From: an uncultured Verrucomicrobiota bacterium
GTDB lineage: Bacteria; Verrucomicrobiota; Verrucomicrobiia; Opitutales; Opitutaceae
Reading direction: 5' to 3'
Length of the DNA stretch: 64,000 nt
NCBI GenBank assembly: GCA_903898675.1
Contig: CAIUGM010000031.1
Location: 1 to 64,000 of the forward strand
Position 1 is the stretch's first letter. The number at the start of each line of letters is the position of its first letter. Shown here piece by piece: positions 27,603-58,412 of the stretch. The position numbers and the translations under genes were made by a program. Under the pieces are notes generated by a model that worked only from the letters and a program-made list of their open reading frames with translations, had not been told where the DNA came from and did no database searches.

Positions 27603-27826
27603 GAGAGGAGGAAGGTTTTCAAAACGGCCTCTGGCTCCGAGCCAGCGACGCATAACAGGGATAGACTGATGGGGGTTGAACGCACTCAGAATCCATGACC
27701 GCCTGCGCCCCCCGGCCAGGCCACCCGCTAGCGCCCCGCCTGATGGAACCCTGGATTGTGTCGGGATTGTCACATGAAAAATCCGTGCAATCCGCACCAA
27801 CCGCCGTTTTCTTCGGAGACTCGCCC

Positions 27827-28708
27827 TTGAAAGTCCGGTTCATCTTCAACCCCCACTCCGGTCGCAACCGCAAGGACCCGTATCTTTACGACCGCGCCGT
27901 GGAATTCATCGCCCGGCACGGGCTCGACGGCACCATTGTCGCCACCGAACGGCCGCGTCACGCCACGGAGTTGGCGGCGGCGGCGGTCGCCGACGGCTGC
28001 AATCTCGTCGTCGCGATCGGCGGTGACGGCACGATGAACGAGGTCGCCAGCGCCCTGATCGGCACCCCCGCCGTCTTCGGCTTGATTCCTTGCGGCTCCG
28101 GCAACGGGCTGGGCCGGCACCTCGGGATCCCGGGCCCCGGCCACGGGGCCTTCAACACCTTGCTGCAAGGGCGGCCGCGGGCGATCGATACCGGGATGGT
28201 CAACGGCTTCGCGTTCGTCAACGCGATGGGCCTGGGGTTCGAGGCCGATATCGCCGTCCGCTTCAGCCGGCTGACGAGCCGCGGCCTCACCGGTTATTTC
28301 CGCGTCGGGGTTCCCTCCTTCTTCTCCCACCAGCCCGAGAACGTCACGGTGCATCATGCCGAAGGCACGGCGCGGCTGCGCGCGTTCACGCTCGCGGTCA
28401 TGAATTCCGACCAGTACGGCAACGACGCCCGCATCGCCCCGGGGGCGAAAATGGACGACGGCCACTTCGATCTCGTGAGCGTGCCCCAGGTCGGCTTCAT
28501 CGGTGCCTGCGGGATGCTTTACCGGCTGGGCACCGACTCCTTCGAGCAGGTCCGCGCCGTCACGCGGCTGAACAGCCCCGAATTCATCATCGAGCGGGAA
28601 AAAGCCGGCTGGGTTCACACCGACGGCGAACCGCGCGCCACCACCGCCCGGCTGGAGATATCCCTGAACCCGCAGAGCCTGCGGATCATGGTGCCGGCCG
28701 CAGTTTAG
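27827..28708 (+). CDS. Diacylglycerol-kinase-family lipid kinase
   Basis: About 293 residues of the DAGK catalytic family (YegS/BmrU-like): VRFIFNPHSGRNRKDP, VAIGGDGTMNEVASALIG, FGLIPCGSGNGLGRHLGIPG (nucleotide-binding GDGT and GSGNG), and GAKMDDGHFDLV. Phosphorylates diacylglycerol or a related lipid with ATP. I propose the TTG at 27827, eight bases after CGGAGA, because the domain begins there and the upstream in-frame ATGs (27743, 27695) lie across repeat-like sequence ATCCGTGCAATCCG. The longer start at 27743 remains possible. A REPIN follows the gene. Confidence 0.87.
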   Translation: MKVRFIFNPHSGRNRKDPYLYDRAVEFIARHGLDGTIVATERPRHATELAAAAVADGCNLVVAIGGDGTMNEVASALIGTPAVFGLIPCGSGNGLGRHLGIPGPGHGAFNTLLQGRPRAIDTGMVNGFAFVNAMGLGFEADIAVRFSRLTSRGLTGYFRVGVPSFFSHQPENVTVHHAEGTARLRAFTLAVMNSDQYGNDARIAPGAKMDDGHFDLVSVPQVGFIGACGMLYRLGTDSFEQVRAVTRLNSPEFIIEREKAGWVHTDGEPRATTARLEISLNPQSLRIMVPAAV

Positions 28709-31583: not shown

Positions 31584-31680
31584 CTTTTAGCTTAGCGGTT
31601 GAGGGCAGGTTGTTTTCAAATCGTAACTTTTGTAAATATCCCCTCGCCTCCCCGGCCGGTTCTTGTATCCCGTGTCAGGC

Positions 31681-32316
31681 ATGATTTCCCTGAAGAAGCT
31701 GCTGGGTAAGGAGGAGAAGTTCTACGACCTGCTGGAGGCCAGTGCAGAGGAGGCCAAGGCCAGCACCGGTCTGCTCGCCAAGATTCTGGGCACCGACGGC
31801 GCCGCCCAGGCCTCCAACATCCACGATATCATCCAGACGCGCCGGAAGGACAAGCGCATCACCCAGCAGATCACCGAGGAACTCTGCAAGACCTTCGTCA
31901 CCCCGCTGGAACGCGAGGACATCGAGGCCCTTTCGCTCGCCCTGTATCGCATCCCGAAAACTGTCGAGAAAATCGTCGAGCGCCTGACCATCTGCCCCGC
32001 CCGCGTGCCGCGCGAGAGCCTGCAGCGCCAGGTCGTGCTGCTCGAGGACGCCGTGGCTTCCGTCGACTTCATGGTGAAACAGCTGCGCAAGGGCACCCAG
32101 ATCGAGCGCATCCAGGACGCCCATTCCCGCCTGCAGTTCGCCGAGGGCGAGGCCGACAAGGTCATGCTCGCCCTGGTCAAGGACCTCTACAACGGCCCCT
32201 ACGAGGCCAAGGAGGTCGTCATCCTCATGGAGCTTTACGATCTGGTGGAGACGGCCGTGGACCGCGCGCGTGACGCCGGCCAGGTCGTCTTCCTCATCAT
32301 GCTGAAATATTCCTAA
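31681..32316 (+). CDS. DUF47 (PhoU-like) regulator of PiT phosphate transporter
   Basis: A 211-residue helical-bundle protein of the DUF47/TIGR00153 family, structurally like PhoU: FYDLLEASAEEAKASTGLLAK, RRKDKRITQQITEELCKTFVTPLEREDIEAL, IPKTVEKIVERLTICPA, VVLLEDAVASVDFMVKQLRKG and LMELYDLVETAVDRARDAGQ. Such genes are typically next to pitA-type phosphate transporters, as here (starting at 32399), and are thought to modulate them. The ATG at 31681 begins MISLKKLLGKEEKFYDLL; the extension to 31663 is short. It follows the tRNA-His gene. Confidence 0.92.
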   Translation: MISLKKLLGKEEKFYDLLEASAEEAKASTGLLAKILGTDGAAQASNIHDIIQTRRKDKRITQQITEELCKTFVTPLEREDIEALSLALYRIPKTVEKIVERLTICPARVPRESLQRQVVLLEDAVASVDFMVKQLRKGTQIERIQDAHSRLQFAEGEADKVMLALVKDLYNGPYEAKEVVILMELYDLVETAVDRARDAGQVVFLIMLKYS

Positions 32317-32398
32317 GCCCGCTGCGCTTTGCCGGGCGACCGGCCCGGACAAACACCGGCCGGCCTGCAGGCCGGAACGGCGCTAGCGACCGAGCCCC

Positions 32399-33466
32399 AT
32401 GACAATTTTCCTGATCGTCCTCCTGACGGCGTTGGTGTTCGAATACATCAACGGCTTTCACGATGCCGCCAACGCCATCGCCACGGTCGTCTCGACCAAG
32501 GTCCTGACCCCGCGCCAGGCGATCACGCTGGCCGCCGTGTTCAATCTCGTCGGCGCCCTGGCCGGCACGGCTGTCGCCAGCACCATCGGCAAGGGCCTGG
32601 TCGACACCAACGTGGTGACGATGGTGACCATCTTCTCCGGCCTCACCGGTGCCATCATCTGGAACCTCCTGACCTGGTGGCTGGGCCTGCCGTCGAGTTC
32701 CAGTCACGCGCTGATCGGCGGACTGTGCGGCGCCGCCGTGGCCTCGGCCGGCAACGACTGGGGGGTGCTGCGCTGGGCCACGACCGACGCCAAGGGTGCC
32801 GCCGCCGGCCTCTGGCCCAAGGTCGTGCTCCCCATGATCAGCTCGCCGCTGGCCGGCTTCTTCGGCGGCGCGCTCCTGATGTTCCTGCTCACGATGATGA
32901 TTCACCGGCTGCGGCCGCGCGTGGTGAACAACCTCTTCGGCAAGCTGCAGCTCGTGAGCGCGGGCTTCATGGCCCACAGCCACGGCTCGAACGATGCCCA
33001 GAAAACCATGGGCATCATCGCGCTCGCCCTCTTCACCGGCACGAAATCCGGCGCCTTTAAGAACCTGCCGGATTGGCTGTCTTTCCTCCGCACGCCCGAG
33101 TTCGTCGTCGATAAGTGGGTGATTTTCACCTGCGCGTTCGTGATGGCGGCCGGCACCACCGCGGGAGGCTGGCGGATCATCCGCACCATGGGCCACAAGA
33201 TGGTCAAGCTGCAGCCCGTTCACGGCTTTGCCGCCGAGACGACCGCGGCCGTCATCATTCAGATTGCCTCCAACTACGGCATCCCGGTTTCCACCACCCA
33301 CGTGATCTCCACCTCGATCATGGGCGTGGGCGCCGCCAAGCGCTTTGGCGCCGTCAAGTGGGGCGTGGTGGAGAAAATCATCTGGGCCTGGGTCTTCACC
33401 CTGCCGGTCTGCGCCCTGATCGGTTTCCTGACGCAGCATCTCTGCAGCTACCTCGGGTATCACTAG
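32399..33466 (+). CDS. Low-affinity inorganic phosphate transporter, PiT family
   Basis: A 355-residue, roughly ten-helix transporter (PitA/Pit type) using a cation gradient to import phosphate-metal complexes. The two conserved PiT signature repeats are visible: VFEYINGFHDAANAIATVVSTKVL and, in the second half, FMAHSHGSNDAQKTMGIIALAL, both with GxxxxAN/ND-type motifs. A further pair, SSSHALIGGLCGAA and STTHVISTSIMGVGA, completes the duplicated core. It follows the DUF47 gene by 82 bases in the same direction. The convergent phoU gene lies 44 bases beyond, with a short palindrome between. Confidence 0.95.
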   Translation: MTIFLIVLLTALVFEYINGFHDAANAIATVVSTKVLTPRQAITLAAVFNLVGALAGTAVASTIGKGLVDTNVVTMVTIFSGLTGAIIWNLLTWWLGLPSSSSHALIGGLCGAAVASAGNDWGVLRWATTDAKGAAAGLWPKVVLPMISSPLAGFFGGALLMFLLTMMIHRLRPRVVNNLFGKLQLVSAGFMAHSHGSNDAQKTMGIIALALFTGTKSGAFKNLPDWLSFLRTPEFVVDKWVIFTCAFVMAAGTTAGGWRIIRTMGHKMVKLQPVHGFAAETTAAVIIQIASNYGIPVSTTHVISTSIMGVGAAKRFGAVKWGVVEKIIWAWVFTLPVCALIGFLTQHLCSYLGYH

Positions 33467-33510: not shown

Positions 33511-34209
33511 TCACATCGGCGGGGTCGAGGCGGAGAACGGCGTATCCTGCTTGGCGATGTCGCTGTGGCGGATGTCCTGCCCCTTCGACAGGAAGACCAT
33601 CTCCTCGGCGATGTTGGTGGCGTGGTCGGCGATCCGTTCGATCGACTTGGAAATGAACATCAGCTCGAGCGCGCGCGAAATCGTGTCGGGCTTCTCGATC
33701 ATGAAGCTGGTCAGCCGGCGGTAGAGCAGCCGGTTCAGGTTATCCACCTCCGGGTCGCGGCGGATGACGCTCAGCGCCTTCTGCTCGTCCTCCTGCACGA
33801 AGCAGTCCAGGGCGTCCCGCAGCATCTCCAGGGCGATGTTCGCCATGCGGGGCATGTCGGCGTAGAGTTCCAGCCGCGGCTCGATGGCCAGCTTGCGGGC
33901 GCGGCGGGCGATGCCCGTCGCCTCGTCGCCGACGCGCTCCAAATCATGGCTGGCCTTCATGCCCACCACGATCACCCGGAGCTCCGAGGCCACCGGGCCG
34001 CGCAACGTCATGTAACGGATCGCCTCGTCATCGATCTTCACCTCGAGGCGGTCGAGTTCGTCGTCGGCCTTGATGACCGAGTCGGCCAGGGGAATATCCC
34101 CGTCCATCAGGGCACGCATGGCCTGCCGCGTCTGGTCGATGGCGCGCTCGCCCATCTGCAGCAGGTGGGAGCGGAAGTTTTCCAGTTCGGCGTCGAAGAA
34201 TCGTTTCAT
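33511..34209 (-). CDS. phoU: Phosphate transport regulator PhoU
   Basis: A 232-residue helical-bundle protein that links Pst transporter state to the PhoR sensor. The PhoU repeats are visible: MKRFFDAELENFRSHLLQMGERAI, DELDRLEVKIDDEAIRYMTLRGPVASELRVIVVGMKASHDLERVGDEATGIAR, and KSIERIADHATNIAEEMVFL. Conserved E/D-rich metal-binding residues are present. The ATG at 34209 is the normal N-terminus. It is the last gene of the pst operon; a 95-bp spacer to pstB holds a CACGAA-type inverted repeat. Confidence 0.95.
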   Translation of the reverse strand: MKRFFDAELENFRSHLLQMGERAIDQTRQAMRALMDGDIPLADSVIKADDELDRLEVKIDDEAIRYMTLRGPVASELRVIVVGMKASHDLERVGDEATGIARRARKLAIEPRLELYADMPRMANIALEMLRDALDCFVQEDEQKALSVIRRDPEVDNLNRLLYRRLTSFMIEKPDTISRALELMFISKSIERIADHATNIAEEMVFLSKGQDIRHSDIAKQDTPFSASTPPM

Positions 34210-34222
34210 GGGATTTGGGTCG

Positions 34223-34296
34223 CCACGAAACACACTAAAAACACGAAAGGTCGCAAACCCCTTTCTCTGATTTCGTGTGCTTCGTGTATTTCGTGG
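34223..34296. repeat. Inverted tandem-word repeat, CACGAAA family
   Basis: Left arm (34223-34248) and right arm (34271-34296) are 26-bp inverted repeats with about four mismatches; each arm contains the word CACGAAA or CACGAA two to three times. It lies in the pstB-phoU spacer, so within the likely operon transcript a long hairpin could form. Confidence 0.75.
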
Positions 34297-34304
34297 TTAA
34301 AATT

Positions 34305-35159
34305 TCAGCCGAACCGGCCGGAGACGTAAGCCTCGGTCTGCGGGTTGGCGGGATTCATGAAGATCGTGCGGGTCGCGGCATACTCGATCAGCTTGCCGAG
34401 GTAGAAAAAGGCGGTCCGGTCGGAGCAGCGGGCGGCCTGCTGCATGTTGTGGGTCACGATCACGATGGTGAACTCCTTCTTCAGCTCATGGATCAACTCC
34501 TCGACCTTGGCCGTGGCTATGGGGTCCAGCGCGGAGCAGGGCTCGTCCATCAGGATGATCTCCGGCTCGACGGCAACGGCGCGGGCGATGCAGAGGCGCT
34601 GCTGCTGGCCGCCGGACAACCCGAGCGCGCTCTGGTGCAGCCGGTCCTTCACCTCGTCCCACAAGGCGGCCCCGCGCAGGCTCTTTTCCACGATCTCGTC
34701 GAGCTGGGCCTTGTTCTTCTGTCCCTGGATGCGGAGGCCATACGTGATGTTGTCGTAGATGGATTTCGGGAAGGGATTGGATTTCTGGAAGACCATGCCG
34801 ACGCGCTTGCGCAGCTCGATGACGTCCACGCGGGGGTCATAGATGTTCACGCCGTCGATCCGGATCTCGCCCTGCGTGACCTTGGCGCCGTCAACCAGAT
34901 CGTTCATCCGGTTCAGGCAGCGCAGGAGCGTGCTCTTGCCGCAACCGGAGGGCCCGATGAACGCGGTGACCTCGCGCTCCTTAATGTGCAGCGAGACGCC
35001 GTGCAGCGTCTTCGCGGTCCCATAGCAGAAATCCACCCCGTCGATTTCAATGACGGCGCGGGCGGCGGGCGCGGTGGCGGGCGCCGGCGCCGCGGAGACC
35101 GTCCGGGCGGCGGTGGAGGGAGCAACGGGTTCGGTCATGGGGGGAAGGGCGGTTACCAT
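34305..35159 (-). CDS. pstB: Phosphate ABC transporter ATP-binding protein PstB
   Basis: A 284-residue ATPase of the high-affinity Pst system. After an Ala/Pro-rich N-terminus come the Walker [40 protein letters not shown], signature [19 protein letters not shown] and Walker [24 protein letters not shown] with the conserved His loop [13 protein letters not shown]. The ATG at 35159 overlaps the pstA stop codon, so translation is probably coupled; an ATG at 35138 would drop seven residues. It is the fourth gene of the pstS-C-A-B-phoU series. Confidence 0.96.
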
Positions 35160-36205
35160 TTGTATTTTTTGCGGAGCCGCGTGCGGAGGATGACCGCGGT
35201 CAGCGCGATGGCGGCGACAGTGAAGAGAAAGACGAAGGCGGTGCCGTACTGGACGTCACGGGTGTATTCGTTCTGGGGAATCTTGGTCGCCACCACGTAG
35301 ATGTGGTAAGGCAATGCCATGACGCCCTGGAAGAAAAAGTCGGTCCACTTCTGCACCTGCCAGGGCAGTTCGTCCCGGACGACAAACGCCGCCGTGAACA
35401 TGATGGGCGCCGTCTCGCCGGCCACGCGGGCGATGGACAGCACCGAGGAGGTCAAAATGCCCGGCAGGGCGTAGGGCAGGACGTTCGTCATGATCGTCTG
35501 GAACTTCGTGGCCCCGAGGGCGAGGGAACCCTCGCGGTAACCCTTGGGCACGGCCTTCAGCGCCTCCTCCGACGCGGTGATGATGATCGGCAGCACCATG
35601 AAGGCCATCGTCAGCCAGCCCGCCAGCAGCGAGACGCCGAAATCCAGCGCGATGACAAAGAGGCCGAAGCCGAACAGGCCGAACACGATCGAGGGCACGC
35701 CGGCCAGGTTGATGATCGACAGACGGAGGAACCGGATGAACGGGCCGTCCGTCGCGTACTCGCTGAGATAGATGGCACTCAGGACCCCGAGCACCAAGGC
35801 GATCACCATGGAGCCCGCGACCAGAAGGAGTGTGCCGACGATGTTCGGGAAAATGCCGCCGGCCGAGTAAACGTAGGTCTCGATGTGCGCGCCCTTGAGC
35901 TCATCAGCGTGCTGCGCCTTGTACTGGCGGAAGGCCCGGGCACCCATGGTCTGCTTCTGCCCGTTGATTTCGAAGACATTCAGCGTCTCGGGCGCCTCGG
36001 TCAGGAACGGCACGTTGATGAAGGGCGCGGACTTCTGGAAGATCACCGCCCCACCCTTGGTGCCGATGTCCCAGAAAATGAACGCGGCGCACAGGAGCAC
36101 GAAGTAGGTGCTGAGCCGCAGCAGGGTGAAGATGACGCTCTCGACGCGCTTGGCCAGCGTGGGCCGGGCGAAGATGGCGGGGACCGTGACGTGCGTCGGG
36201 TTCAT
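35153..36205 (-). CDS. pstA: Phosphate ABC transporter permease PstA
   Basis: A 350-residue permease with six helices. After the first helix ([15 protein letters not shown]) is a roughly 70-residue extracytoplasmic segment containing [20 protein letters not shown]. The BPD_transp_1 core begins at [20 protein letters not shown], with [25 protein letters not shown] (EAA loop) and [15 protein letters not shown]. Longer than the usual 280-300 residues because of this insert. Starts by ATGA overlap with pstC and ends overlapping pstB, so the three are one operon. Confidence 0.95.
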
Positions 36206-37875
36206 CCGATGGAGATCCGGTAGCGGCGCACGATCTTCTGCGCGAGCCAGTTGATGAGGAGCGAAATCAGGAAGAGCAGGACGCCGATCATGAAGAGTGC
36301 GCGGTAATGGATGCTGTCGCGCACCACCTCGCCCATTTCCTGGGCGATGATGCCGGTCATCGTGTGCACCGGCTGGAAGATCACCCCGGCACCCTTGCTG
36401 AAATCAGGGATCTCGATCCGGTTGCCGGCGCAGAGCAGCACGACCATCGTCTCGCCGACAACCCGGCCGAAACCGAGCAGAATGGCGGCCATGATGCCGG
36501 AGAGCGCCGCCGGCACGGTGATGTGAATCATGGTCTGCAGGCGGGTCGCCCCCAGGGCCAGCGAAGCCTCGCGGAAGGAGCGCGGGACGTTGTTGATCGC
36601 GTCCTCGGCCAGCGAGAAGATTGTCGGGATCGCCATGAGCGCGAGCAGGCAGGCCGCCGTGGTGGCGTTCAGGCGCTCGGCGATCGGAAAGCCCGGCACC
36701 CAATCCAGGCTGGGTGACTGGGAAACCCGGCGCAGCGTCTCTCCGAGCATCGCGATGCCGAAGAAGCCAAGGACGACACTCGGGATGGCGGAGATAAACT
36801 CGATGTAGGGCTTGATGAACTTCTGCTCAGCCGGGCGGGCGACCTGGTTGACGTACACCGCGGCGGCGACCCCGAGCGGGATCGCAATCAGGAGCGCGAG
36901 GAAGGCGATCAGCAGAGAGCCACTCAACAGCGGGAGGACGCCATACCAATCCTGCCAGGAGGAACTGCCGGTGATCCACTTCCGGCCGAAGGCAAACGCG
37001 TTGAAGGCTTCCAGCCTGCCGACCGGCTTCGTCTGGTCCCAGGCCGCCATTTTGGCTTCGGCGGTCTTGATCTCGCCGGCGTACGCCTGAACGAAACCTT
37101 GAAATTTCTCCAGCTTGCGGGTGAAGGCAGGGTCGGGAAACTTGGGCACATTCGCCGCCAGCGCGTTCATCTCAACGAGCAGCTTGGCATTCGCCTCAAG
37201 GATCTGCGGGCGCATTGCCAGCAGGGGCTGGATCTCGGTCTTGAAATCGATCGTCTCGATCTGAATCTCATCGGCCTGCTTCTGCAGTTCCGCCGCCCTT
37301 TCGGGGGTAGCGGTCCGTTTGGCGGCCAGCAGCTTCTTCTTACCCTCGGCCAGATCCTCGCCGACCGTCTGGCGTTCCTTCAGGGAACTGGCCAGGTCGG
37401 TCATCGTGCCGAGGATCGTCTCCTCATCACTGATCGTATCGGAAAAGCGATTCGCGAAATCATCAAACACCGCGAGCTGGGCCATGGCGGCCGCCGGACT
37501 CAGTCCTTCTTTCTTGGTCAAACGGTCCCGCTGCTGTTCCCGCGCGCTGGCTAGATAACGCGAGATGGTGCTGTGGGTCGTGACTTGTTCGCGGAAAATG
37601 TCGACGAACTCGAGACCCGCGAGCCGGTAGATTACCAGGTTGGCGTGGTTCTGCGGCAGAAACCCGACGGCATCTCGGAAGATCGTGAACGTGATCAGGG
37701 CCAGCACGACGATGGAGATCGCGGCATTGCCCTGGAACACGTACTTGACGAACTGGTCGCCGGTCATCCCGAAGAACCATCCGGTGCGCTTGCGCAGCAG
37801 GGCCTCTTGGGTCGTCAGGCGGGGAGCGGCGGGAGTTTGAGTGGCGGCGGGCATTCCAAGGGACGGCATCAGCAT
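36202..37875 (-). CDS. pstC: Phosphate ABC transporter permease PstC with long extracytoplasmic insertion
   Basis: A 557-residue permease, against the usual 300-320. The first helix (about 50-67, [18 protein letters not shown]) is followed by about 245 residues outside the membrane (roughly 70-314), rich in Glu/Lys/Ala with coiled-coil character ([20 protein letters not shown]). Then comes the BPD_transp_1 core: [45 protein letters not shown] (EAA loop) and [14 protein letters not shown]. PstC-PstA form the phosphate channel. A Pho-box-like site lies 35 bp upstream and a terminator separates pstS from it. Confidence 0.93.
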
Positions 37876-37909
37876 CGGGACCGGCGGCGGGGCCGGTCAA
37901 CCGGGACAG

Positions 37910-37927
37910 GTTACAGTTGCGTTACAA
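37910..37927 (-). promoter_or_regulatory. Pho-box-like site before pstC
   Basis: Minus-strand TTGTAAC and CTGTAAC (plus 37921-37927 and 37910-37916) are separated by exactly 4 bp, an 11-bp repeat. This matches the PhoB site architecture (consensus CTGTCAC-N4-CTGTCAC). It lies 35 bp upstream of the pstC start. Confidence 0.65.
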
Positions 37928-37972
37928 AGAGTGGGAGTGGCGGCCGGCAGGGACGCCGGGCGCTGCGCGGTT

Positions 37973-38012
37973 AAAAACGGCCGCCCGCAGTCCGGGCAGG
38001 TCTGCGGGCGGC
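37973..38012 (-). terminator. Terminator/attenuator between pstS and pstC
   Basis: An 11-bp perfect stem GCCGCCCGCAG / CTGCGGGCGGC with an 11-nt loop. On the minus strand it is followed by CGTTTTTAA. It lies 27 bases after the pstS stop and could limit pstCAB transcription relative to pstS. Confidence 0.85.
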
Positions 38013-38038
38013 TTTGGTTACACTTTTCTCAGCCTGAC

Positions 38039-38857
38039 TCAGTTCAGCTTGCGGACGGGAACGAAACCGACCTTGCGGACGATTTTCTGCCCCTCGTCGC
38101 TCAGCGTAAACTCGACAAACTTGGCGGCTTCGCCGGACGGCTCGCCGTTCGTGTAGTAGAACGTCGGCCGGGCGTATGGATATTGCTTGGCTAGCACGGA
38201 TTCCTCGGTGGGCAGCGAACCCTCGATGGAGACCGTCTTGATGCCGGGATCCGTCAGGTAGGCGAGGCCCACATAACCGATACCGTTGGCATTTTTGGCG
38301 ACCTCGGCGGCGATCTGCTCATTGCCGGCCATCTTCTGCGAGGAGGAAGCGTAGTCGCGCTTCTTCATGGCAAGGTCCTTGAAGTCCGAATACGTGCCGG
38401 ACGACGTGTTGCGGGTATAGATCGAGATCGGGCCGGCGGTGCCGCCCACCTGGCTCCAGTCGGTGATGTCACCGGCGAAGATCTGCTCGACCTGGCGCTT
38501 GGTCAGGGTGCTGAGCGGATTTTTCGCACTGACGATGACGCCGATGCCGTCGAAGGCCACGATCGTGGGCTTCATCGTAACGCCCTTGGCCGTGGCCGCG
38601 GACATCTCGGTGGGCTTGGCGCGGCGGCTGGACATGCCGATCTGGGCGGTGCCGTCGGTAATGGCGGCGATGCCGGTGGTCGAACCCTCGGCCGCGATTT
38701 CAAAGGTCGTGCCGGGATGGCTGGACTTGTAGTCCTCGGCCAGCATCGGGACGAGCTTGGCGCCCAGGGTATCTGAACCCTTGATGACGAGTTTCTGGGC
38801 GCTGGCCAGCCCGGTGACGGACAAGGCGGCGGCCAGGAGGAGAATGGATTTTTTCAT
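38039..38857 (-). CDS. pstS: Phosphate-binding protein PstS
   Basis: A 272-residue periplasmic binding protein with a signal peptide (ILLLAAALSVTGLASAQ). Phosphate ligands: VIKGSDTLGAKLVPML, GTTFEIAAEGSTTGIAAITDG and IGMSSRRAKPTEM; TRNTSSGTYSDFKDL is typical of PstS, as is GEPSGEAAKFVEFTLS near the C-terminus. It supplies phosphate to PstCA-B. The gene starts 29 bases after the porin stop and is likely co-transcribed with it from the Pho box upstream of the porin. A terminator follows, so pstC is less expressed from this transcript. Confidence 0.94.
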   Translation of the reverse strand: MKKSILLLAAALSVTGLASAQKLVIKGSDTLGAKLVPMLAEDYKSSHPGTTFEIAAEGSTTGIAAITDGTAQIGMSSRRAKPTEMSAATAKGVTMKPTIVAFDGIGVIVSAKNPLSTLTKRQVEQIFAGDITDWSQVGGTAGPISIYTRNTSSGTYSDFKDLAMKKRDYASSSQKMAGNEQIAAEVAKNANGIGYVGLAYLTDPGIKTVSIEGSLPTEESVLAKQYPYARPTFYYTNGEPSGEAAKFVEFTLSDEGQKIVRKVGFVPVRKLN

Positions 38858-38886
38858 GGGAATCGGTGGTTAAATTGCAGTCGCGA

Positions 38887-40206
38887 TTAGAACTTCACGA
38901 CGAGGTCGAGCAGCAGTTCCTGGGAGTGATCGAGGTTGCCCAAGGAGAAGGTCATGCCCTTCTGGATGATCGAGGTATCGAAATACTTGAGCCCCAGGGT
39001 GCTGAAATCAGTGACATTGTAGAGGAGGGTCAGTTCAAAACCCTTCTCGTTGTCCTTGCTGAAGCCCCAGTCGGAATCGTTGATGTTCGGGTCGGTGGCG
39101 GTGATCCCGACGCGGCGATAGTCAAGCCGGGCGCTGTAATCGCCCTGCACCTTGCCGGTGCCGCTGGCGTAGCCGATACCGGCCAGCCAGGCCGTGGAAC
39201 CGTCGCTGAACTTGGCACTGTTCAGGCCGTAGACGCGGTAAGCACGGGTGCCCGCTGTCAGGTTATAGGAGGAATCCCAGTAGACCTTGAAGGCCGTGCC
39301 CGCGCCGTTGACGTTGGCGAAGTTGACCTCGCCAGCGAAGGTCGCGTAGTCCTGCGCCCGCAGCGGGCCCACGAACGCGGCGGAATTGAGGATACCATCG
39401 GTCGCGAGGACCGTGGACTGGTTGTACGCGTTGTAACCGGCCGCGATGACCACGCTGCTCAGGTTGTTCGGGGCGAACCAGTGCGTATAAACGGCCTGAT
39501 TTTCAAAGAGGAATGCATCCCGGCGGGCGGGACCGGTATTGTTTGCCTCGGTCCGGTCCTGCATGAAGTGCTGCATGGAACGCACCTCAAACGTGTCCTT
39601 CGAACCGATGAAGTGCTTGTAGATTTCGCTCAGGCCCTGGGGATTGATGTCGGCGTCCCAGCGCAGATCGGTCGTGTACATGATGTTCTTCTGTTTCCCG
39701 AGGACGAACGCCCAGTTGGAGTTCGGCTGCCAGCCCACATAGGCGCGGGCCAGGTAGATGCCGTAGTCGTCCGCCATGTTGGTGAAGGTCTGGTTGGCCG
39801 AGTCGCTCGACTGGCCGGTTTCCAGGGCGAAGCCGGCCGTCCAGCCCTTCTGCAGGGCCAGGTCCCCATTGAGCCGGAAGCGCAGGCGCTGGCGGGAGGT
39901 TTCATTGGCGACCGTGTAACCGCCGGCGGCAATCTCCGGCGCCTGGCTGTTGTACTCGTAGCGCATGCGGATGTCGCCCGAGATCTTGAACTCGGTGATG
40001 GCCGAGCCGAGGTTCAGTTTGCCGGCCGAGGTGTTGGCTGCGAAATCCTTGACGAGGTCGGCGCGAAGTTCCTCGGCCTCCTGATCGTTGACGATGCCCT
40101 TCTTGACCAGCAGGTCAATGAGCGGGCCGCTGTCTTGGGCGAATGCGGCCCCGGCGCAAAGGAGCGCCGTGGACACCGCGAGCAGTTTGGATTTTAGGTT
40201 AAGCAT
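38887..40206 (-). CDS. Outer-membrane porin, probable phosphate porin
   Basis: A 439-residue outer-membrane protein. The signal peptide is LLAVSTALLCAGAAFAQ, followed by an SLH-like/coiled N-terminal helical region (LIDLLVKKGIVNDQEAEELRADLVKDF) typical of Verrucomicrobia porins, then a beta-barrel of amphipathic strands (RMRYEYNSQAPEI, RLRFRLNGDLALQKGW, WAFVLGKQKNIMY, AYVGWQPNSNW). It ends on phenylalanine (LLLDLVVKF), the usual outer-membrane assembly signal. The Pho box upstream and pstS downstream argue for a phosphate-starvation porin analogous to OprP/OprO; ion selectivity itself is inferred. Confidence 0.88.
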   Translation of the reverse strand: MLNLKSKLLAVSTALLCAGAAFAQDSGPLIDLLVKKGIVNDQEAEELRADLVKDFAANTSAGKLNLGSAITEFKISGDIRMRYEYNSQAPEIAAGGYTVANETSRQRLRFRLNGDLALQKGWTAGFALETGQSSDSANQTFTNMADDYGIYLARAYVGWQPNSNWAFVLGKQKNIMYTTDLRWDADINPQGLSEIYKHFIGSKDTFEVRSMQHFMQDRTEANNTGPARRDAFLFENQAVYTHWFAPNNLSSVVIAAGYNAYNQSTVLATDGILNSAAFVGPLRAQDYATFAGEVNFANVNGAGTAFKVYWDSSYNLTAGTRAYRVYGLNSAKFSDGSTAWLAGIGYASGTGKVQGDYSARLDYRRVGITATDPNINDSDWGFSKDNEKGFELTLLYNVTDFSTLGLKYFDTSIIQKGMTFSLGNLDHSQELLLDLVVKF

Positions 40207-40272: not shown

Positions 40273-40281
40273 CCGAGAATT

Positions 40282-40310
40282 GTTACGGTTTCGTGACGCC
40301 CATGTGACAA
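40282..40310 (-). promoter_or_regulatory. Triple Pho box upstream of the porin-pstS operon
   Basis: Minus-strand TTGTCAC, GCGTCAC and CCGTAAC (plus 40304-40310, 40293-40299, 40282-40288) are in perfect 11-bp phase with 4-bp spacers (ATGG, GAAA). A fourth CTGTCAC at 40324-40330 is out of phase. This is a strong PhoB binding-site pattern. Confidence 0.8.
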
Positions 40311-40373
40311 ACTGGGAAAAGGCGTGACAGACGGTCGTTGTCTTTTGCGGGTCGGCGCCCAGTGTCCCCGCCC

Positions 40374-46302: not shown

Positions 46303-46331
46303 ATTTCACCCGATTGTCACCCGGGCGACGC
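46303..46331 (+). promoter_or_regulatory. Weak Pho-box-like repeats before the lipid-remodelling cluster
   Basis: ATTTCAC (46303-46309), TTGTCAC (46314-46320) and GCGACGC (46325-46331) lie in 11-bp phase with 4-bp spacers (CCGA, CCGG), 80 bp upstream of the GT4 start. The middle match is good; the outer two are partial. Compare the better sites at 40282 and 37910. Confidence 0.5.
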
Positions 46332-46407
46332 CTTTTCTTCACACAGTCCCCCCATCCTGTGCGCGTGCTCAGCGAACGGCCTGCCACCGCCGCCGGGGCC
46401 AAAACCA

Positions 46408-47613
46408 TTGAACCTTGTCCTAGTCACCGAAACCTATTCGCCCGAAATCAACGGCGTCGCCATGACGCTGGGTCACCTCGTGCAGGGCCTCGCCCGCCGT
46501 GGCCACCGCCTCACGGTCATCCGCCCGCGCCAGCGCGCCGAGCAGGGGGCGGCCGAAATCCAGACCGACGGCCCGGTCACGCAATACCTGCTCCCCGGCC
46601 TGCCCATCCCCGGCTATCCCCTGCTCCGCTTCGGCCTGCCCGCCGGCCGGCAGCTCCGCCGGCTCTGGCGCCGGCAGCGCCCGGATCTGGTCCACATCGC
46701 CACCGAGGGTCCGCTGGGCTTTTCCGCCCTGCGCTCCGCCCGCATTTTGGGGCTGCCGGTCACGTCGAGCTTCCACACCAACTTCCACCACTACACGCAC
46801 GACTACCGCTTCAGCTGGTTGTTTTCGCTGACGGCAAAGTGGCTCCGTTATTTCCACAACCAGACCCGGCGGACCTTTGCCCCCACGCGCGAGCTTTGCG
46901 ACCAGCTCGGCGGGGAAGGCTACGCCAATCTCCGCGTGCTGTCGCGCGGCGTGGACACCGCGCTGTTCGCCCCCGCCCGGCGCCGGCCGGAACTGCGCGC
47001 GGCCTGGGGCGTGGGCGCGGACGACCCGGTGGTCATTCACACCGGCCGGCTTGCCCGCGAGAAAAACTACGGGCTGATCTTCCGGGCCTTTGACGCCATG
47101 CGCGCCGCCAACCCGCGCTGCCGCTTCGTGGTGGTGGGCGACGGCCCGCTGCGCCCCGGCCTGCAGGTGAAACACGGCTACTGCCGCTTCACCGGCTTTG
47201 TCGACCGCGGGGTCCTCGCGGAGCACTACGCGTCCGCCGACATCTACCTGCACGCGAGCACCACCGAGACCTACGGCAACGTCGCCGCCGAGGCGCTGGC
47301 CAGCGGTCTCGCCTTCGCCGGCTACGACTACGCCGCCGCCCACGAGCTGGTCCGCCCCGGCGAAAACGGCCTGCTTGTGCCCGTCGGCGACGAGCCCGCC
47401 TTCCTCGCGGCCGCCGGGCGCCTCGCCACCGAGCCGGCGCTCGTCACCCGTCTCCGCGCCGGTGCCGCCGCCGCCGTCCAGGCGCGCTCATGGTCCAGCA
47501 TAATCGAGCGGTTCGAAGCCGACCTCTCTGAAGCCGCCGGCGCCACCAAGGTCCCAGCCAATCGAGAATCGAGAATCGAAAATCAAAAATTGGTCTCCCC
47601 CCTCCTCCCATGA
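46408..47613 (+). CDS. GT4 glycosyltransferase (SqdX / glycolipid-type)
   Basis: A 401-residue retaining glycosyltransferase. It starts NLVLVTETYSPEINGVAMTLGHLV and has VTSSFHTNFHHYTHDYRF, TGRLAREKNYGLIFRAFDAM, VVVGDGPLRPGL and the E-x7-E motif in STTETYGNVAAEALASGLAF. The pattern matches sulfolipid or diacylglycerol glycosyltransferases (SqdX and relatives). The start is TTG. Its last 17 residues (ANRESRIENQKL...) are encoded by an AATCGA-type repeat, which probably replaced the native C-terminus. Its stop overlaps the plcP-like start (ATGA). Clustered with plcP-like and GT28 genes, suggesting glycolipid synthesis; sugar and lipid specificity are inferred. Confidence 0.85.
   Translation: MNLVLVTETYSPEINGVAMTLGHLVQGLARRGHRLTVIRPRQRAEQGAAEIQTDGPVTQYLLPGLPIPGYPLLRFGLPAGRQLRRLWRRQRPDLVHIATEGPLGFSALRSARILGLPVTSSFHTNFHHYTHDYRFSWLFSLTAKWLRYFHNQTRRTFAPTRELCDQLGGEGYANLRVLSRGVDTALFAPARRRPELRAAWGVGADDPVVIHTGRLAREKNYGLIFRAFDAMRAANPRCRFVVVGDGPLRPGLQVKHGYCRFTGFVDRGVLAEHYASADIYLHASTTETYGNVAAEALASGLAFAGYDYAAAHELVRPGENGLLVPVGDEPAFLAAAGRLATEPALVTRLRAGAAAAVQARSWSSIIERFEADLSEAAGATKVPANRESRIENQKLVSPLLP
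47557..47592. repeat. Degenerate repeat, AATCGA family
   Basis: The words AATCGAG, AATCGAG and AATCGAAAATCAAAAATT follow in tandem. The repeat lies inside the 3' end of the GT4 gene and supplies its last residues. No second arm is adjacent. Confidence 0.6.
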
Positions 47614-48434
47614 GCAAACCCGCCCTCCATGTCCGCTCGGTCATCGTGTCCGACATCCACCTCGGCACCCCGCACAGCAAGGTCGACGAAGTCACCCACT
47701 TCCTCAAGCACGTCCGCTGCGAGCGCCTGATCCTCAACGGCGACATCATCGACGGCTGGCGCCTGCGCCGGGACGGCGTGTGGACCAAGGCCCACACGCG
47801 CTTCATCCGCCGCGTCCTCACCATGATCCAGAAACGCGACACCGCCGTGGTCTACCTGCGCGGCAACCACGACGACTTCGTCGGCCGGCTGCTGCCGATG
47901 GCGTTCGAGCACCTCAGCCTGGTCGAGGACTATATCCTGGAAACCAAGCAGGGCCGCTACCTCGTGCTGCACGGCGACGTGTTCGACGGCGTGGTGAAGA
48001 ACATGGTGTTCCTCGCCCACCTCGGCGACGCGGGCTATGCGCTGCTGCTCCGCCTGAACCGGTTCTACAACTGGTTCCGCGCCCTGCGCGGCAAGGAGTA
48101 CTTCTCGCTCAGCCAGGCCATCAAGGCGCGGGTCAAGCAGGCGGTCAGCTTCATCTCCAACTTCGAGGAGCAGATCGCCTCCCTCGCCCGCGACCGCGGC
48201 TGCCGCGGGGTCATCTGCGGCCACATCCACACGCCGGCCGACAAGATGATCGGCGACATCCACTACCTGAACTCGGGCGACTGGGTCGAGTCGCTGACCG
48301 CGATCCTCGAGCACCACGACGGCCGCTTCGAGCTCATCACCTTCAAGCAGTTCACCGCCCAGTTCCCGTTCGCCCACTCCGCCTCGGCCGCCGAGGAGGC
48401 CGAGGAGTCGCTGCCGCTGCCCGTCCTCGCCTGA
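47610..48434 (+). CDS. plcP: PlcP-like phospholipase C / LpxH-family metallophosphoesterase
   Basis: A 274-residue calcineurin-like phosphoesterase. All five metal motifs are present: VSDIHLG, NGDIIDGW, RGNHDD, LHGDVFD and CGHIHTP, with GDWVESLTAILEHHDGRFELI at the end. These features, including NGDIIDGW and the ending NSGDWVES, match the rhizobial PlcP phospholipase C, which degrades zwitterionic phospholipids during phosphate starvation, better than LpxH proper; the two share a family. Context between GT4 and MGDG-synthase-like genes supports PlcP. It overlaps the GT4 gene by ATGA and precedes the GT28 gene by three bases. Confidence 0.8.
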   Translation: MSKPALHVRSVIVSDIHLGTPHSKVDEVTHFLKHVRCERLILNGDIIDGWRLRRDGVWTKAHTRFIRRVLTMIQKRDTAVVYLRGNHDDFVGRLLPMAFEHLSLVEDYILETKQGRYLVLHGDVFDGVVKNMVFLAHLGDAGYALLLRLNRFYNWFRALRGKEYFSLSQAIKARVKQAVSFISNFEEQIASLARDRGCRGVICGHIHTPADKMIGDIHYLNSGDWVESLTAILEHHDGRFELITFKQFTAQFPFAHSASAAEEAEESLPLPVLA

Positions 48435-48437
48435 TCC

Positions 48438-49619
48438 ATGGCTAAAATCCTCATCCTCACCGCCGGCTACGGCGAAGGCCACAACAGCGCGGCCCGCGCG
48501 CTCCAGGCCGCCTTCAACGAGCAGCCGGGGGTCGACGCCGAGCTGGTCGACCTGTTCGCCCTGCGCGCGCCGCGGCTCAACAACGTCTCGCGGCGCGGCT
48601 ACCTGAAGCTGATCAATTCCGCCCCGCTCCTCTGGAGCGCCGTCTACCGCTGGCTCGACCGCTCGCCGCGCGCCCCGTGGCTCTTCCGCACGCTCGCGAG
48701 CCACCGCCGGCTGCTGGGCCGGCTCATCGCGGAAAAGCGGCCGGTCGCGGTCGTTTCCACCTACCCGGTCTACGGCTGGCTGCTCAACCAGCTGCGCCGC
48801 GAGGGCGGGATCAGCTGCCCGCAGTTCACGGTCATCACCGATGCGCTGACCATCAATTCCCTCTGGTACCGCACCCCCTCCGACGGCTGGTTTGTGACCG
48901 ACCGCGACTCGGCTGCCTACCTTTATGCGCACGGCGTGCCGGCCACCAAGGTGCACGTGAGCGGCTTTCCCGTGTCGCTCGCCTTCGCCGACCGGCCGCC
49001 GCACTGGCAGCCGCCGGACCCGCTGGCCGTGCCGGAGCGCCGGATTCTCTTCATGATCAACTCGGGCCGGCGCCACGCCGTCGACATCGCCCGGGCCCTG
49101 CTGCAACACCGCGGGTGGCGCATCACGTTCACCGCCGGCCGGGACGAGCCGTTGCGCCGGGAACTCACCGCCCTGGCCGCCGGCGCCCCGGCGGCGGCCG
49201 AGGTGCTGGGCTGGACCGACCGGATCCCGGAGCTGCTCATGACGCACCATGTCGTCATCAGCAAGGCGGGCGGGGCCACGACGCAGGAATCGATCAACGC
49301 CCTCTGCCCGCTACTCGTGAGCCAGATCGTACCCGGCCAGGAGGAGGGCAACTATGAGCTGATCCGCCGCCATGACGCCGGCGCCTTGGCGGAGACCCCG
49401 CAGGAGATTGTGTCCACCTTGCAGCGGCTCTTCGCCAGCGACGCCGGGCTCTGGCGCCACTGGCGCGCCAATCTCGGGAATCTCGCCCAGCCCGCCGCCG
49501 CCCGGCAGATCGCGGCGACGGTCCTGCAGCAGGCCGGGCTGGCGGTTGGCGTGGTGCCGGCCGCGCGGCCGGCCGAGGGCGCGCCGATTTTGATTCCGGT
49601 TGCGCCCGTTTCTCCTTGA
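48438..49619 (+). CDS. MGDG-synthase-like GT28 glycosyltransferase
   Basis: A 393-residue glycosyltransferase of the MurG/MGDG synthase type. The N-terminal MGDG_synth region reads LILTAGYGEGHNSAARALQAAF; the C-terminal nucleotide-sugar domain contains ILFMINSGRRHAVDIA, VLGWTDRIPELLMTHHVVISKAGGATTQESI and LVSQIVPGQEEGN. It would add a sugar to diacylglycerol, producing a non-phosphorous membrane lipid. Placed three bases after the PlcP-like gene, it could use the diacylglycerol that PlcP releases. The end of the gene lies 18 bases before the ABC permease, so co-transcription is possible. Confidence 0.85.
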   Translation: MAKILILTAGYGEGHNSAARALQAAFNEQPGVDAELVDLFALRAPRLNNVSRRGYLKLINSAPLLWSAVYRWLDRSPRAPWLFRTLASHRRLLGRLIAEKRPVAVVSTYPVYGWLLNQLRREGGISCPQFTVITDALTINSLWYRTPSDGWFVTDRDSAAYLYAHGVPATKVHVSGFPVSLAFADRPPHWQPPDPLAVPERRILFMINSGRRHAVDIARALLQHRGWRITFTAGRDEPLRRELTALAAGAPAAAEVLGWTDRIPELLMTHHVVISKAGGATTQESINALCPLLVSQIVPGQEEGNYELIRRHDAGALAETPQEIVSTLQRLFASDAGLWRHWRANLGNLAQPAAARQIAATVLQQAGLAVGVVPAARPAEGAPILIPVAPVSP

Positions 49620-49637: not shown

Positions 49638-51377
49638 TTGCATCAGGGTGTGATTACTCATCGGAACGACGCTCCCGCCCCCCGCTCTGCGTGGTGGATC
49701 GACGCGTGCGTGCTCCTCGGCCTCGGGGCGCTGCTGGTCGGCATCAGCAGCATCGCCACGCAATGGGAACAGCCGTTGCGCGCCACGGTGGACATCGACC
49801 TGTCGCCGCGCTCGCTGCCGAAATACATGCTGTTCTCGCTCGCCCGCGGCTGGATCGCCTACGGTTTCTCGCTGCTGTTCACCCTGCTGGTCGCCTCGTG
49901 GGCCTTCTACGACCTGCGGGCGCGGAAGTTCCTGCTGCCCGCGCTTGATGTGCTGCAGAGCATCCCGGTGCTGGGTTTCCTGCCCGGCCTCGTGCTGTTC
50001 CTCGTCGGGCTTTTCCCGCACAGCAACACCGGCCTCGAGCTCGCGTGCGTGTTGATGATCTTCACCGGCCAGGTCTGGAACATGACCTTCAGCTACCACG
50101 ACTCGCTCCGCGCGGTGCCGCCGGAGTTCCGCCTGCTGGGGAAATTCTACGGCTTCAACTGGTGGCACCGTTTCTGGCGGATCGAGCTGCCGTGCGGCGC
50201 GCAGGGGCTGCTCTACAACAGCATGGTGTCGATGGCCGGCGGCTGGTTCTTCCTCAGCATCACCGAGGCCTTCCGGCTGGGCGACCAGGATTTCCGCGTG
50301 CCCGGCATCGGCTCCTACATGAGCGTCGCCATCGAGCGCGGCGACGTGCGCGCCCAGCTTTTCGGCATCATCGCGATGGGCCTCATCATCGTGATCGTCG
50401 ACCGGCTCATCTGGTGGCCGCTCGTGGTCTGGTCCCGGCGCTTCAAGCTCGACGACTTCGCGGGGGCCACGGTGGCGCCGTCCGCGTTCCAACTCTGGCT
50501 TTCCCGCTCCCGCTTCGCCGGCCTCATGGGCGGGCTCGTGGAGAAACTGCGGCGCCGCTTCCTCACGCTGCCCGACCGGCCGGTCACGGTCGCCGGCCCG
50601 GCGGAAATCCCGGCCGAGACCGGCGGGACCGGCCGCTGGGCCTACCGGCTGTTGATCGGCCTGCTGCTCGCCGCGCTGGCCTGGGGCGCCGCGCGGCTCG
50701 TGCTGCTGCTCGGCCAGGTGCCTTGGGCGGACTGGCGCGAGATCCTTTACTGCACTTTCCTCAGTTTCGGGCGCGTTTTGGCTGCCGTTGCCATCGGGAC
50801 CATCTGGACCGTGCCGGTCGGGATCTGGATCGGCCTGAACCCCAAGCTCTCCAGCCGGCTGCAGCCTTTCATCCAGTTCGCGGCCTCCTTTCCCGCCCCG
50901 ATGATCTACCCGTGGATTCTCGGCCTCGTCCTGCTGGTCGGCGGCACCCTGCAATGGGGCTCCATCATCCTCATCCTGCTCGGGACCCAGTGGTACATCC
51001 TCTTCAATGTGGCCGCCTCGGCGACCGCGATTCCCAACGACATCGTCAGCGCCGCCACGCTGCTCCGGCTCGACACCTGGCGCCAGTGGACCCGCTTCCT
51101 GATCCCGGCGGTCTTCCCCGGCCTCGTCACCGGCTGGGTCACCGCCGCCGGCGGTGCGTGGAACGCCACGATCGTCTCGGAATACGTCCAGGCCGGCGGC
51201 AAGCTCTACCAGGCCACGGGCCTCGGCGCGCTGATCAGCCGGGCCACCGACGCCGGCAACTTCCCCAAGCTCACCGCGGCCGTGCTGGTGATGGCGGTGG
51301 TTGTGGTTGGCATCAACCGTACTTTGTGGAAAAAGCTCCAGGTGCTCGCCGACACCCGCTGCCGTTTCGGCTTCTGA
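49638..51377 (+). CDS. NitT/TauT-type ABC permease with two fused permease domains
   Basis: A 579-residue protein with two BPD_transp_1 modules of about six helices each. In the first: [37 protein letters not shown] (EAA loop). In the second: [34 protein letters not shown] (EAA loop), ending [18 protein letters not shown]. Helix segments are rich in Leu/Val/Gly. Such a single-chain double permease usually works with an ATPase of the nitrate/sulfonate/taurine type, encoded next. The start is TTG at 49638, GTG at 49650 being possible. No substrate-binding protein gene is present, so the cargo is unknown; lipid-cluster linkage hints at a lipid-related role. Confidence 0.85.
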
Positions 51378-51381
51378 TCCC

Positions 51382-52803
51382 ATGTCCGATCCCTCCTCCC
51401 AACCGCTCATTGAAGTTCGCCACGTGTCGCACGAATACGGCTCGACCGGCGGCCATGAGGCCGAGCTGGTCCTCTCCGATATCAACCTGAGCATCTGCGG
51501 CAACGAGGCCGTCGCCCTGCTCGGGCCGTCCGGCTGCGGCAAGTCGACGCTCGTCCGCATCATGGCCGGCCTGATCACCCCCAGCAAGGGCGAGGTCCTG
51601 TGGAAGGGCTCGCCGCTGACCGGCGTCTCCCCGGGCGTGTCGATGGTCTTCCAGAATTTCGCCCTCTTCCCCTGGCTCAGCGTCCGCGGCAACGTCCTGC
51701 TGCCCGTCGAGCACCTGCCGCCCGCCGAGCAGGCCGCCCGCCTCGAGAAGGTCCTGGCGACCGTCGGCCTCGGCGCCTACGAGTATTCCTACCCGCGCGA
51801 ACTATCCGGCGGCATGAAGCAGCGCGTCGGCATCGCCCGCGCCCTCATCGCCAACCCCGAGGTGCTCGCGATGGACGAGCCCTTCAGCGCCCTCGACGTC
51901 CTCACCGCCGAGACCCTGCGCAACGAAATCGCCCGGCTGCTCGCCAGCGCCGACCACCCGTTGCGCACGATGGTGTTTGTCACGCACAACATCAGCGAGG
52001 CCGTCTTCCTCGCGACGAAGATCGTGCTGCTCGCCGCCAACCCGGGCCGGGTCGATGTCGTGGTGCCCGTGACCATGCCCTACCCGCGCGACCCCGACTC
52101 GCCCGAGTTCCGCGCCGCGGTCGAGAACCTCCACCGCATCCTCACCCACACCAATCTCCCCGACACCGCCGTCGCAGTGGCGGACGCCGGCAAGGTTTCC
52201 ACCAAGGTGGACGAAACCCGCCGGCGCATCGCCCCCGTCTCCATTCCCTACGTCACCCCCGCCGAGGTGCTCGGCCTCCTCGGGCTCATCGACCACGAGG
52301 CCACCGACGTCTTTGAACTCGCGGAGCGCCTGGGCAAGGAATTCGGCTCCGTCGTCCGGCTGGTGAAGGCCGCCGAGTTGCTGGGCCTGGTCCGCACGCC
52401 CGGCCAGGACGTGGAAATCACGCCGCTCGGCCTCGAGGCGCTGGCCGCGGTGCCGACCGAGCAGAAGCGCATCGTGCGCGAGCAGCTGCTCAAGCTGAAG
52501 ATTTTCGAACTGCTGGTCCGCCTCATCAAGGTGCAGCCCGAGCAGCTCCTCTCCGACGAGGAACTGATCCGGGAGCTCACCATCGCGCTCCCGCACGAGA
52601 AGCCGCGCCAGCTGTTCCGCACGCTGCTCAGCTGGGGCCGTTACTCCGAAATCATCAGCTACGACCAGCGGAAGCACATCATCCGCCTCTACGAGGGCAA
52701 GGGCCGGACCCGCGTTGCCGCCCCCGCCCCCTTGGTGCCGCCGGCGCCCGCCGGCGATCCGGCGCCCCCGACTCCTCCGCCGCCAACCAGCCCCGCAGCT
52801 TAG
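51382..52803 (+). CDS. NitT/TauT-type ABC ATPase with AAA-associated C-terminal domain
   Basis: A 473-residue ATPase. N-terminal domain: Walker [21 protein letters not shown]-loop [17 protein letters not shown], signature [19 protein letters not shown], Walker [13 protein letters not shown], and [15 protein letters not shown]. After about residue 270 comes an AAA-associated C-terminal region (winged-helix-like: [27 protein letters not shown], and [25 protein letters not shown]), ending in a Pro-rich tail. The ATG at 51382 is four bases after the permease stop (51377), so they are one unit. The C-terminal domain occurs in a subset of these transporters whose substrates are unsettled. Confidence 0.88.
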
Positions 52804-58379: not shown

Positions 58380-58412
58380 TTGAAGGTCGGGAGGCTGCCC
58401 TTCACCTGGCCT

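Follow-up and report, generated by a model that had tools for sequence, protein, structure and literature searches.

A predicted PlcP-type lipid-remodelling operon in an Opitutaceae bacterium and a GT4-PlcP gene fusion in another family of Verrucomicrobiota

The window analysed here spans positions 1 to 64,000 of contig 31 (CAIUGM010000031.1) in the 3.5-Mb genome of an uncultured Verrucomicrobiota bacterium (GCA_903898675.1), whose nearest named relatives, judged by PlcP, are Opitutaceae. Lipid remodelling driven by PlcP in connection with phosphate is well studied in Proteobacteria, and the original prediction for this window, made from the sequence without database searches, had described three overlapping or abutting genes as a candidate operon of that type. 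All three were confirmed as open reading frames (ORFs) running in one direction, with an overlap of 4 nt between the GT4 glycosyltransferase and the phosphoesterase and a gap of 3 nt between the phosphoesterase and the GT28 glycosyltransferase (Table 1). Pfam searches assigned them to Glyco_transf_4 (E-value 8e-33), Metallophos (2e-11), and MGDG_synth (1e-16), respectively. The GT4 frame ends in a terminal tail that runs over a AATCGAGAATCGAAAATC repeat at 47558-47584, a 27-base repeat with a single occurrence within the window, and its similarity to the GT4 of the congener G080 ends at residue 376. The 4-nt overlap with plcP therefore seems to be derived from this tail.

Table 1. Positions of the genes and candidate control elements of the window, and of the fusion frames in named loci (L numbers, own coordinates)
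Feature	Positions	Strand	Basis or remark
Agt-like GT4 lipid glycosyltransferase	46408..47613	+	401 aa, TTG start; Pfam and NCBIfam
PlcP-type phospholipid phosphodiesterase (predicted)	47610..48434	+	274 aa; Pfam, motifs, tree
GT28, UgtP/MGDG-synthase-like processive diacylglycerol glycosyltransferase (predicted)	48438..49619	+	393 aa; Pfam, NCBIfam, PDB matches
Pho-type array before GT4	46305..46348	+	four 11-bp units, ~100 to 60 bp upstream of GT4 start
phoU, pstB, pstA, pstC, pstS, Porin_5 porin	33511..40206	-	profile searches; porin 38887-40206, pstS 38039-38857, pstC 36202-37875
Pho-type array before porin-pstS	40276..40319	-	rank 1 in window with two, three, and four units
Pho-type pair before pstC	37904..37925	-	rank 2 of separate sites, two units
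Diacylglycerol-kinase-like lipid kinase (DAGK_cat + YegS_C)	27827..28708	+	homologue of pre-plcP gene in relatives
GTGTC-N6-GTCAC element before lipid kinase	27758..27779	+	rank 3 of separate sites, two units; weak
GT4-PlcP fusion frames	L122:4846-6786; L123:765-2720; L124:4864-6816; L125:4846-6807; L130:4867-6837

To place the middle gene, its product was aligned, scored against curated models, and included in a tree. All five metal motifs proposed for a PlcP/LpxH-like metallophosphoesterase were present (D15xH17, GD45, GN86HD, H121GD, and GH205xH207), and residues D15, H17, D45, N86, H121, H205, and H207 were invariant across 23 aligned rows including Escherichia coli LpxH. However, the window protein has GNHD where E. 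coli and Pseudomonas aeruginosa LpxH have GNRD, and it scored 25.8 bits (cut-off 190) and 44.9 bits (cut-off 134) against two LpxH equivalog models. The tree held 111 rows: the window, 17 of 60 fetched relatives, 80 named loci, 8 annotated records of a plasmid collection, and 5 LpxH. The LpxH rows parted from the other 106 rows at 100/100, so the firm grouping with LpxH that would have spoken against the original prediction was not seen. The 106 PlcP-type rows include Sinorhizobium meliloti, Shinella, and Burkholderiales, and the window PlcP belongs to an 83-row clade among them (98/100) that is made up of Verrucomicrobiota and Bacteroidota; the Thioclava and Pannonibacter rows have very long branches. 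The window PlcP is 41.7% identical to the S. meliloti protein, which we take to be the characterised SMc00171 orthologue, an assignment that fits the neighbouring N-acyl homoserine lactone synthase and LuxR genes. The predicted model of the phosphoesterase had a mean predicted local distance difference test score (pLDDT) of 80.7, and its nearest solved fold was LpxH at a template modelling (TM) score of ~0.5, a match that is expected within the superfamily and was not used to decide PlcP membership. Close PlcP relatives were also observed in Bacteroidota (L103 and many of L127-L176, ~45-55% identity). A relative on a Parabacteroides plasmid, carrying an LpxH-type annotation, overlaps another glycosyltransferase gene (Glyco_trans_1_3), and the Phocaeicola (L226) and B. 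finegoldii (L227) rows group with LpxH, outside the PlcP clade.

For the GT28, the proposed likeness to monogalactosyldiacylglycerol (MGDG) synthase was borne out. Its MGDG_synth domain scored 61.6 bits against a Pfam cut-off of 25, and two solved relatives were found at E<=0.1 (PDB 9wde, E 2e-22; 4wyi, E 2e-18), a processive diacylglycerol beta-glucosyltransferase and the chloroplast MGDG synthase 1. The profile of diglucosyl-diacylglycerol synthase was matched over its full length with 167 bits, which does not reach the equivalog cut-off of 500. For the GT4, the two nearest curated profiles, glucosaminyl (GlcN)-phosphatidylglycerol synthase and alpha-monoglucosyldiacylglycerol (alpha-MGlcDAG) synthase, were both far below cut-off. 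Over 374 columns, it shares 32% identity with a GT4 encoded after plcP on a Sphingomonas plasmid. Both marks of an Agt, full-length GT4 similarity and a plcP neighbour, are found, with an uncharacterised plasmid GT4 rather than a characterised Agt as the comparison. The earlier label of an SqdX-like GT4 found no support, no SqdX or SqdB reference having been compared.

The gene neighbourhood was surveyed in 177 genomes of the order, in 78 of which PlcP was found. Sixty of these were fetched with ~6 kb on each side of plcP where the contig allowed, some stretches ending at contig ends; their genes were called as six-frame ORFs with profiles, and pst, phoB, and phoR were named from sequence and home-made profiles with no curated search. 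A same-strand GT4 was present in 34 of the 60 relatives, before plcP in 33 and after it in one (L077), a same-strand GT28 was present in 11, and one or both were present in 40. Across the 177 genomes, GT4 (E<=1e-40) and PlcP occurred together in 67, PlcP only in 11, GT4 only in 4, and neither in 95; the p value of 8e-32 for this co-occurrence is overstated because related genomes are not independent. A single family (f19) supplied 8 of the 11 PlcP-only genomes, and in all six of its fetched loci (L081, L082, L084, L085, L086, and L090) a GT28 gene directly follows plcP instead. Same-strand pst genes were found in 7 of the 60 relatives, from three families. In L051, from the window's own family, the order is GT4-GT28-kinase-plcP, then other ORFs, then pstS-pstC-pstA; L055 shows the same arrangement with one ORF between, pstS immediately adjoins in L063, and four loci of one family (L087, L088, L091, and L092) have the order pstS-GT4-plcP-phoB-phoR-pstC. 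Sulfatase-like genes were also repeatedly observed near plcP in some lineages (L073, L075, L081, L085, L094, and L095).

Upstream of the window operon, the 11-bp-phased repeats earlier noted at 46303-46331 proved to be real and to reach further, with units TTCAC at 46305, GTCAC at 46316, a degenerate unit at 46327, and TTCAC at 46338; two congeners have the array in altered form. The pst genes with a better Pho-type array that had been reported nearby were likewise found, 6-13 kb away, and the window's best array stands before porin-pstS. A scan with the E. coli Pho-box consensus was dropped as non-significant, and a de novo phased-motif model was used instead. This model had 11 tied columns, was fitted from data-derived starting words to 33 upstream regions (31 from relatives and 2 from the window), and was controlled by fits at other periods and by a leave-one-family-out test. 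Period 11 gave a log-likelihood of 124.9, compared with at most 95.5 for periods 8, 9, 10, 12, 13, and 14, and the unit was GTCAC. A held-out model was fitted to the 29 regions that remained once the window and two congeners had been removed, but was seeded by GTCACC from the 33-region fit. When both strands of the 64 kb were scanned with it, the porin-pstS promoter ranked 1 with two, three, and four units, and the GT4 promoter ranked 2 with four units, 7 with three, and 16 with two; the next separate sites with two units lie before pstC and then before the lipid kinase gene. In the leave-one-family-out test, which drew its starting words only from the training regions, 11 of 31 loci had their best three-unit site <=350 bp before GT4 against 0.97 expected (9 of 31 with two units and 10 of 31 with four). 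In the two nearest named loci, outside the training set, the best three-unit site before GT4 came second (L110) and first (L111) within its locus. Half-sites in the 11-bp phase of a Pho regulon were found before the operon, and on the comparative evidence the array is significant, the E. coli consensus by itself being non-significant. A PiT-type phosphate transporter gene with its DUF47 partner (31663-33466) was observed beside the pst genes, on the opposite strand.

In 5 of the 80 named loci (L122, L123, L124, L125, and L130, with Rubritalea marina DSM 17716 among them), GT4 and PlcP form a single reading frame of ~650 codons (Pfam-checked in L130), and these five fusions form a clade at 99/84. 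The fusion was then sought in 384 genomes of the class (profile match at E<=1e-60, best matches first). At least 151 genomes matched, at least 39 of them in one piece over both domains, and all of the latter belong to one family, presumably Akkermansiaceae. Among the one-piece fusions listed, 38 were stop-free and one (G431) had an internal stop; the best 20 matches were re-read, and all 20 were one stop-free frame with both domains. The matches listed included 43 genomes of the fusion family, of which G350, G457, G504, and G539 had no one-piece match, with two overlapping genes in G457. Outside this family, G213 and G467 were rejected as fusions, each having two separate ORFs. The predicted fusion model showed two well-folded domains (pLDDT 86.2), and its predicted TM score of 0.64 leaves their mutual placement unsure. 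In 12 loci of the fusion family (11 fused), a two-unit site <=350 bp before the gene was the best of the locus in 8, second in 3, and at rank 11 in 1; with three units, the pre-gene site came first in just 2. A pstS-like gene is close to the fusion in L122 and L260, and none was found nearby in the short loci L236-L255. Inverted GTGAC-N6-GTCAC-like elements were observed ~70-90 bp upstream of the fusions (L256-L267) and before the window's lipid kinase gene. They resemble the direct 11-bp repeats found at the pst promoter but differ from them, and may be a distinct operator. Many of the sites before the genes of the fusion family are inverted in this way and are candidate Pho boxes.

The lipid kinase gene of the window is detached from the operon, lying 18 kb away and divergent from miaA. 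In 9 of the 60 relatives, a diacylglycerol-kinase-like gene stands in the string before plcP (DAGK_cat and YegS_C in L044, the one scanned), and GT4, GT28, kinase, and plcP occur all together in 8 of the 80 named loci. A miaA-like gene on the minus strand precedes the string in 17 of the 60 relatives, with GT4 adjoining in 16 of the 17 (Pfam-checked in L049), so the window seems to be a split version of an older array in which miaA was followed by GT4-kinase-plcP. The element upstream of the window kinase has inverted, not direct, half-sites and recurs in two congeners. A role of the kinase as strict PlcP partner was unsupported: it was found in 74 of 80 genomes of the family, including G035 and G091, where no PlcP was found, and G213 and G240 had a PlcP match but no kinase match. 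For Pseudomonas, PMC5082522 reports PlcP alongside a DagK that is Pho-dependent.

These results make it very probable that the three genes form a phosphate-controlled operon for lipid remodelling of the PlcP type in this Opitutaceae bacterium. The phosphate-linked reading, which had been proposed before, draws on the gene identities and the placement of PlcP apart from LpxH, on the gene order of relatives with its pst/pho linkage, on the Pho-type arrays and their shared phased motif, on the co-occurrence with GT4, and on the gene fusion. Under low phosphate, a PhoB-like regulator would bind the 11-bp-phased array before the GT4 gene. PlcP, as expected from its family, would remove the phosphate head group of membrane phospholipids and leave diacylglycerol; GT4 would attach the first sugar, and GT28 would add a sugar to diacylglycerol or to the GT4 product, giving phosphate-free glycolipids. 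The released phosphate would be reused, and the lipid kinase would probably convert surplus diacylglycerol back to phosphatidic acid. We put at about even the chance that Verrucomicrobiota use a distinct module with a physical link between PlcP and its glycosyltransferase (adjacent or overlapping genes in Opitutaceae, a fusion in the other family), which would turn phospholipid into glycolipid in one complex, with a kinase of the same string returning spare diacylglycerol to phosphatidic acid.

Several points weigh against this phosphate-controlled operon. Its induction and lipid products are inferred. The GT28 and GT4 scores are far under the curated equivalog cut-offs, the sole characterised PlcP in the tree is proteobacterial, with the window PlcP in the separate Verrucomicrobiota-Bacteroidota clade, and GT4 and GT28 are both missing from the fetched stretch in 20 of the 60 relatives. 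The E. coli Pho-box consensus was not significant in the window (p 0.21) or over 37 regions (2 at p<=0.05; combined p 0.19), and the genome's best PhoB candidate scored 258 bits, below the equivalog cut-off of 296. The GT4 promoter ranked low with two and three units, and similar scores were reached at 58401, 2438-2449, and 5387, where no link to Pho is evident. In 20 of the 31 held-out loci, the best three-unit site lay elsewhere than before GT4; viewed post hoc, several of these sites are close before plcP, pstS, or pstC (L049, L053, L054, L063, L087, L092, and L098).

Three other explanations were considered. It is most improbable that the phosphoesterase is a divergent LpxH whose neighbours make lipid A or lipopolysaccharide. 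LpxH is the closest among solved structures by sequence and by fold, the public records of relatives carry a UDP-2,3-diacylglucosamine diphosphatase annotation, and a 3-deoxy-D-manno-oct-2-ulosonic acid (Kdo) transferase gene lies 3.3 kb beyond the operon. However, LpxI is present in the window's own genome and in 162 of the 177 genomes of the order, and a profile search found LpxH over cut-off in 0 of the 177, so the window phosphoesterase is not needed for the lipid A step. The phosphoesterase is also patchy (78 of 177), independently of LpxI (72 genomes with both, 6 with PlcP only, 90 with LpxI only, and 9 with neither; p 0.79). The LpxH identity was rejected on these counts together with the GNHD motif, the low profile score, and the tree split.

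It is unlikely that GT4 and GT28 use other acceptors, such as polyprenyl, teichoic-like, or sulfolipid precursors, and that PlcP alone remodels lipids. The GT4 profiles, of which that of GlcN-phosphatidylglycerol synthase was best, leave room for this as they do not fix the acceptor, whereas the solved structures matched by GT28 are those of a diacylglycerol glucosyltransferase and an MGDG synthase, and GT4 is fused to PlcP in at least 39 genomes. A glycolipid operon whose PlcP is constitutive or answers a stress other than phosphate seems a poor prospect as well. It would accord with the non-significant E. coli consensus and with the 53 of 60 relatives that have no same-strand pst gene in the fetched stretch, some of these being cut by contig ends, but pst/pho genes lie within the gene string in three families, and the de novo phased motif also marks the window's pst promoters.

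Systems of the PlcP-Agt kind are already known, and the present operon is a variant of them; new here are the lipid-kinase partner and the GT4-PlcP fusion in one family. As described in the available portions of PMC4796936 and PMC9239053, the plcP-agt cluster of SAR11, Agrobacterium, Methylosinus, and Pseudomonas shares PlcP beside a GT4, an upstream Pho-type site, and a Pho context. The present operon differs in having its GT4 gene upstream of plcP and an additional GT28; in relatives the string includes a lipid kinase, and in one family GT4 and PlcP are one protein. The same portion of Sebastian et al. 2015 (PMC4796936) describes PlcP in Alphaproteobacteria, SAR86, a flavobacterium, and one verrucomicrobium, in six neighbourhood types. 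In types 3 and 5, plcP is immediately upstream of putative glycosyltransferases, one of which makes di-/tri-glycosyldiacylglycerol; plcP with a diacylglycerol glycosyltransferase is the common feature, but the partner here is an MGDG_synth/GT28 and that of the Pannonibacter plasmid case a GT21. The verrucomicrobial homologue came from a marine single-cell genome (PMC4796936; repeated in PMC13086504), and no PlcP is reported for verrucomicrobial methanotrophs in the portion of PMC9239053 available. Compared with UgtP/YpfP and plant MGD1, the window GT28 has the MGDG_synth domain and a full-length profile match in common, but it is under the equivalog cut-off and located in a plcP operon. With LpxH, the window PlcP has the metallophosphoesterase fold and metal ligands in common, but differs in its GNHD and separate clade, and LpxI covers the lipid A step. 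In the mainly open-access PlcP literature, as represented by titles and abstract openings, no description of the operon or of the fusion was found.

Directly past the operon, an ATP-binding cassette transporter was observed at 49638-52803; its permease is of double length, and its ATPase has an AAA_assoc_C domain at the C terminus.

The results suggest a PlcP identity for many records that carry an LpxH-type diphosphatase annotation. The analysis provides an operon anatomy for Verrucomicrobia that is testable in cultured Opitutaceae, in Rubritalea, and probably in Akkermansia, and the natural fusion enzyme offers a handle on the coupling of phospholipid breakdown to glycolipid synthesis.

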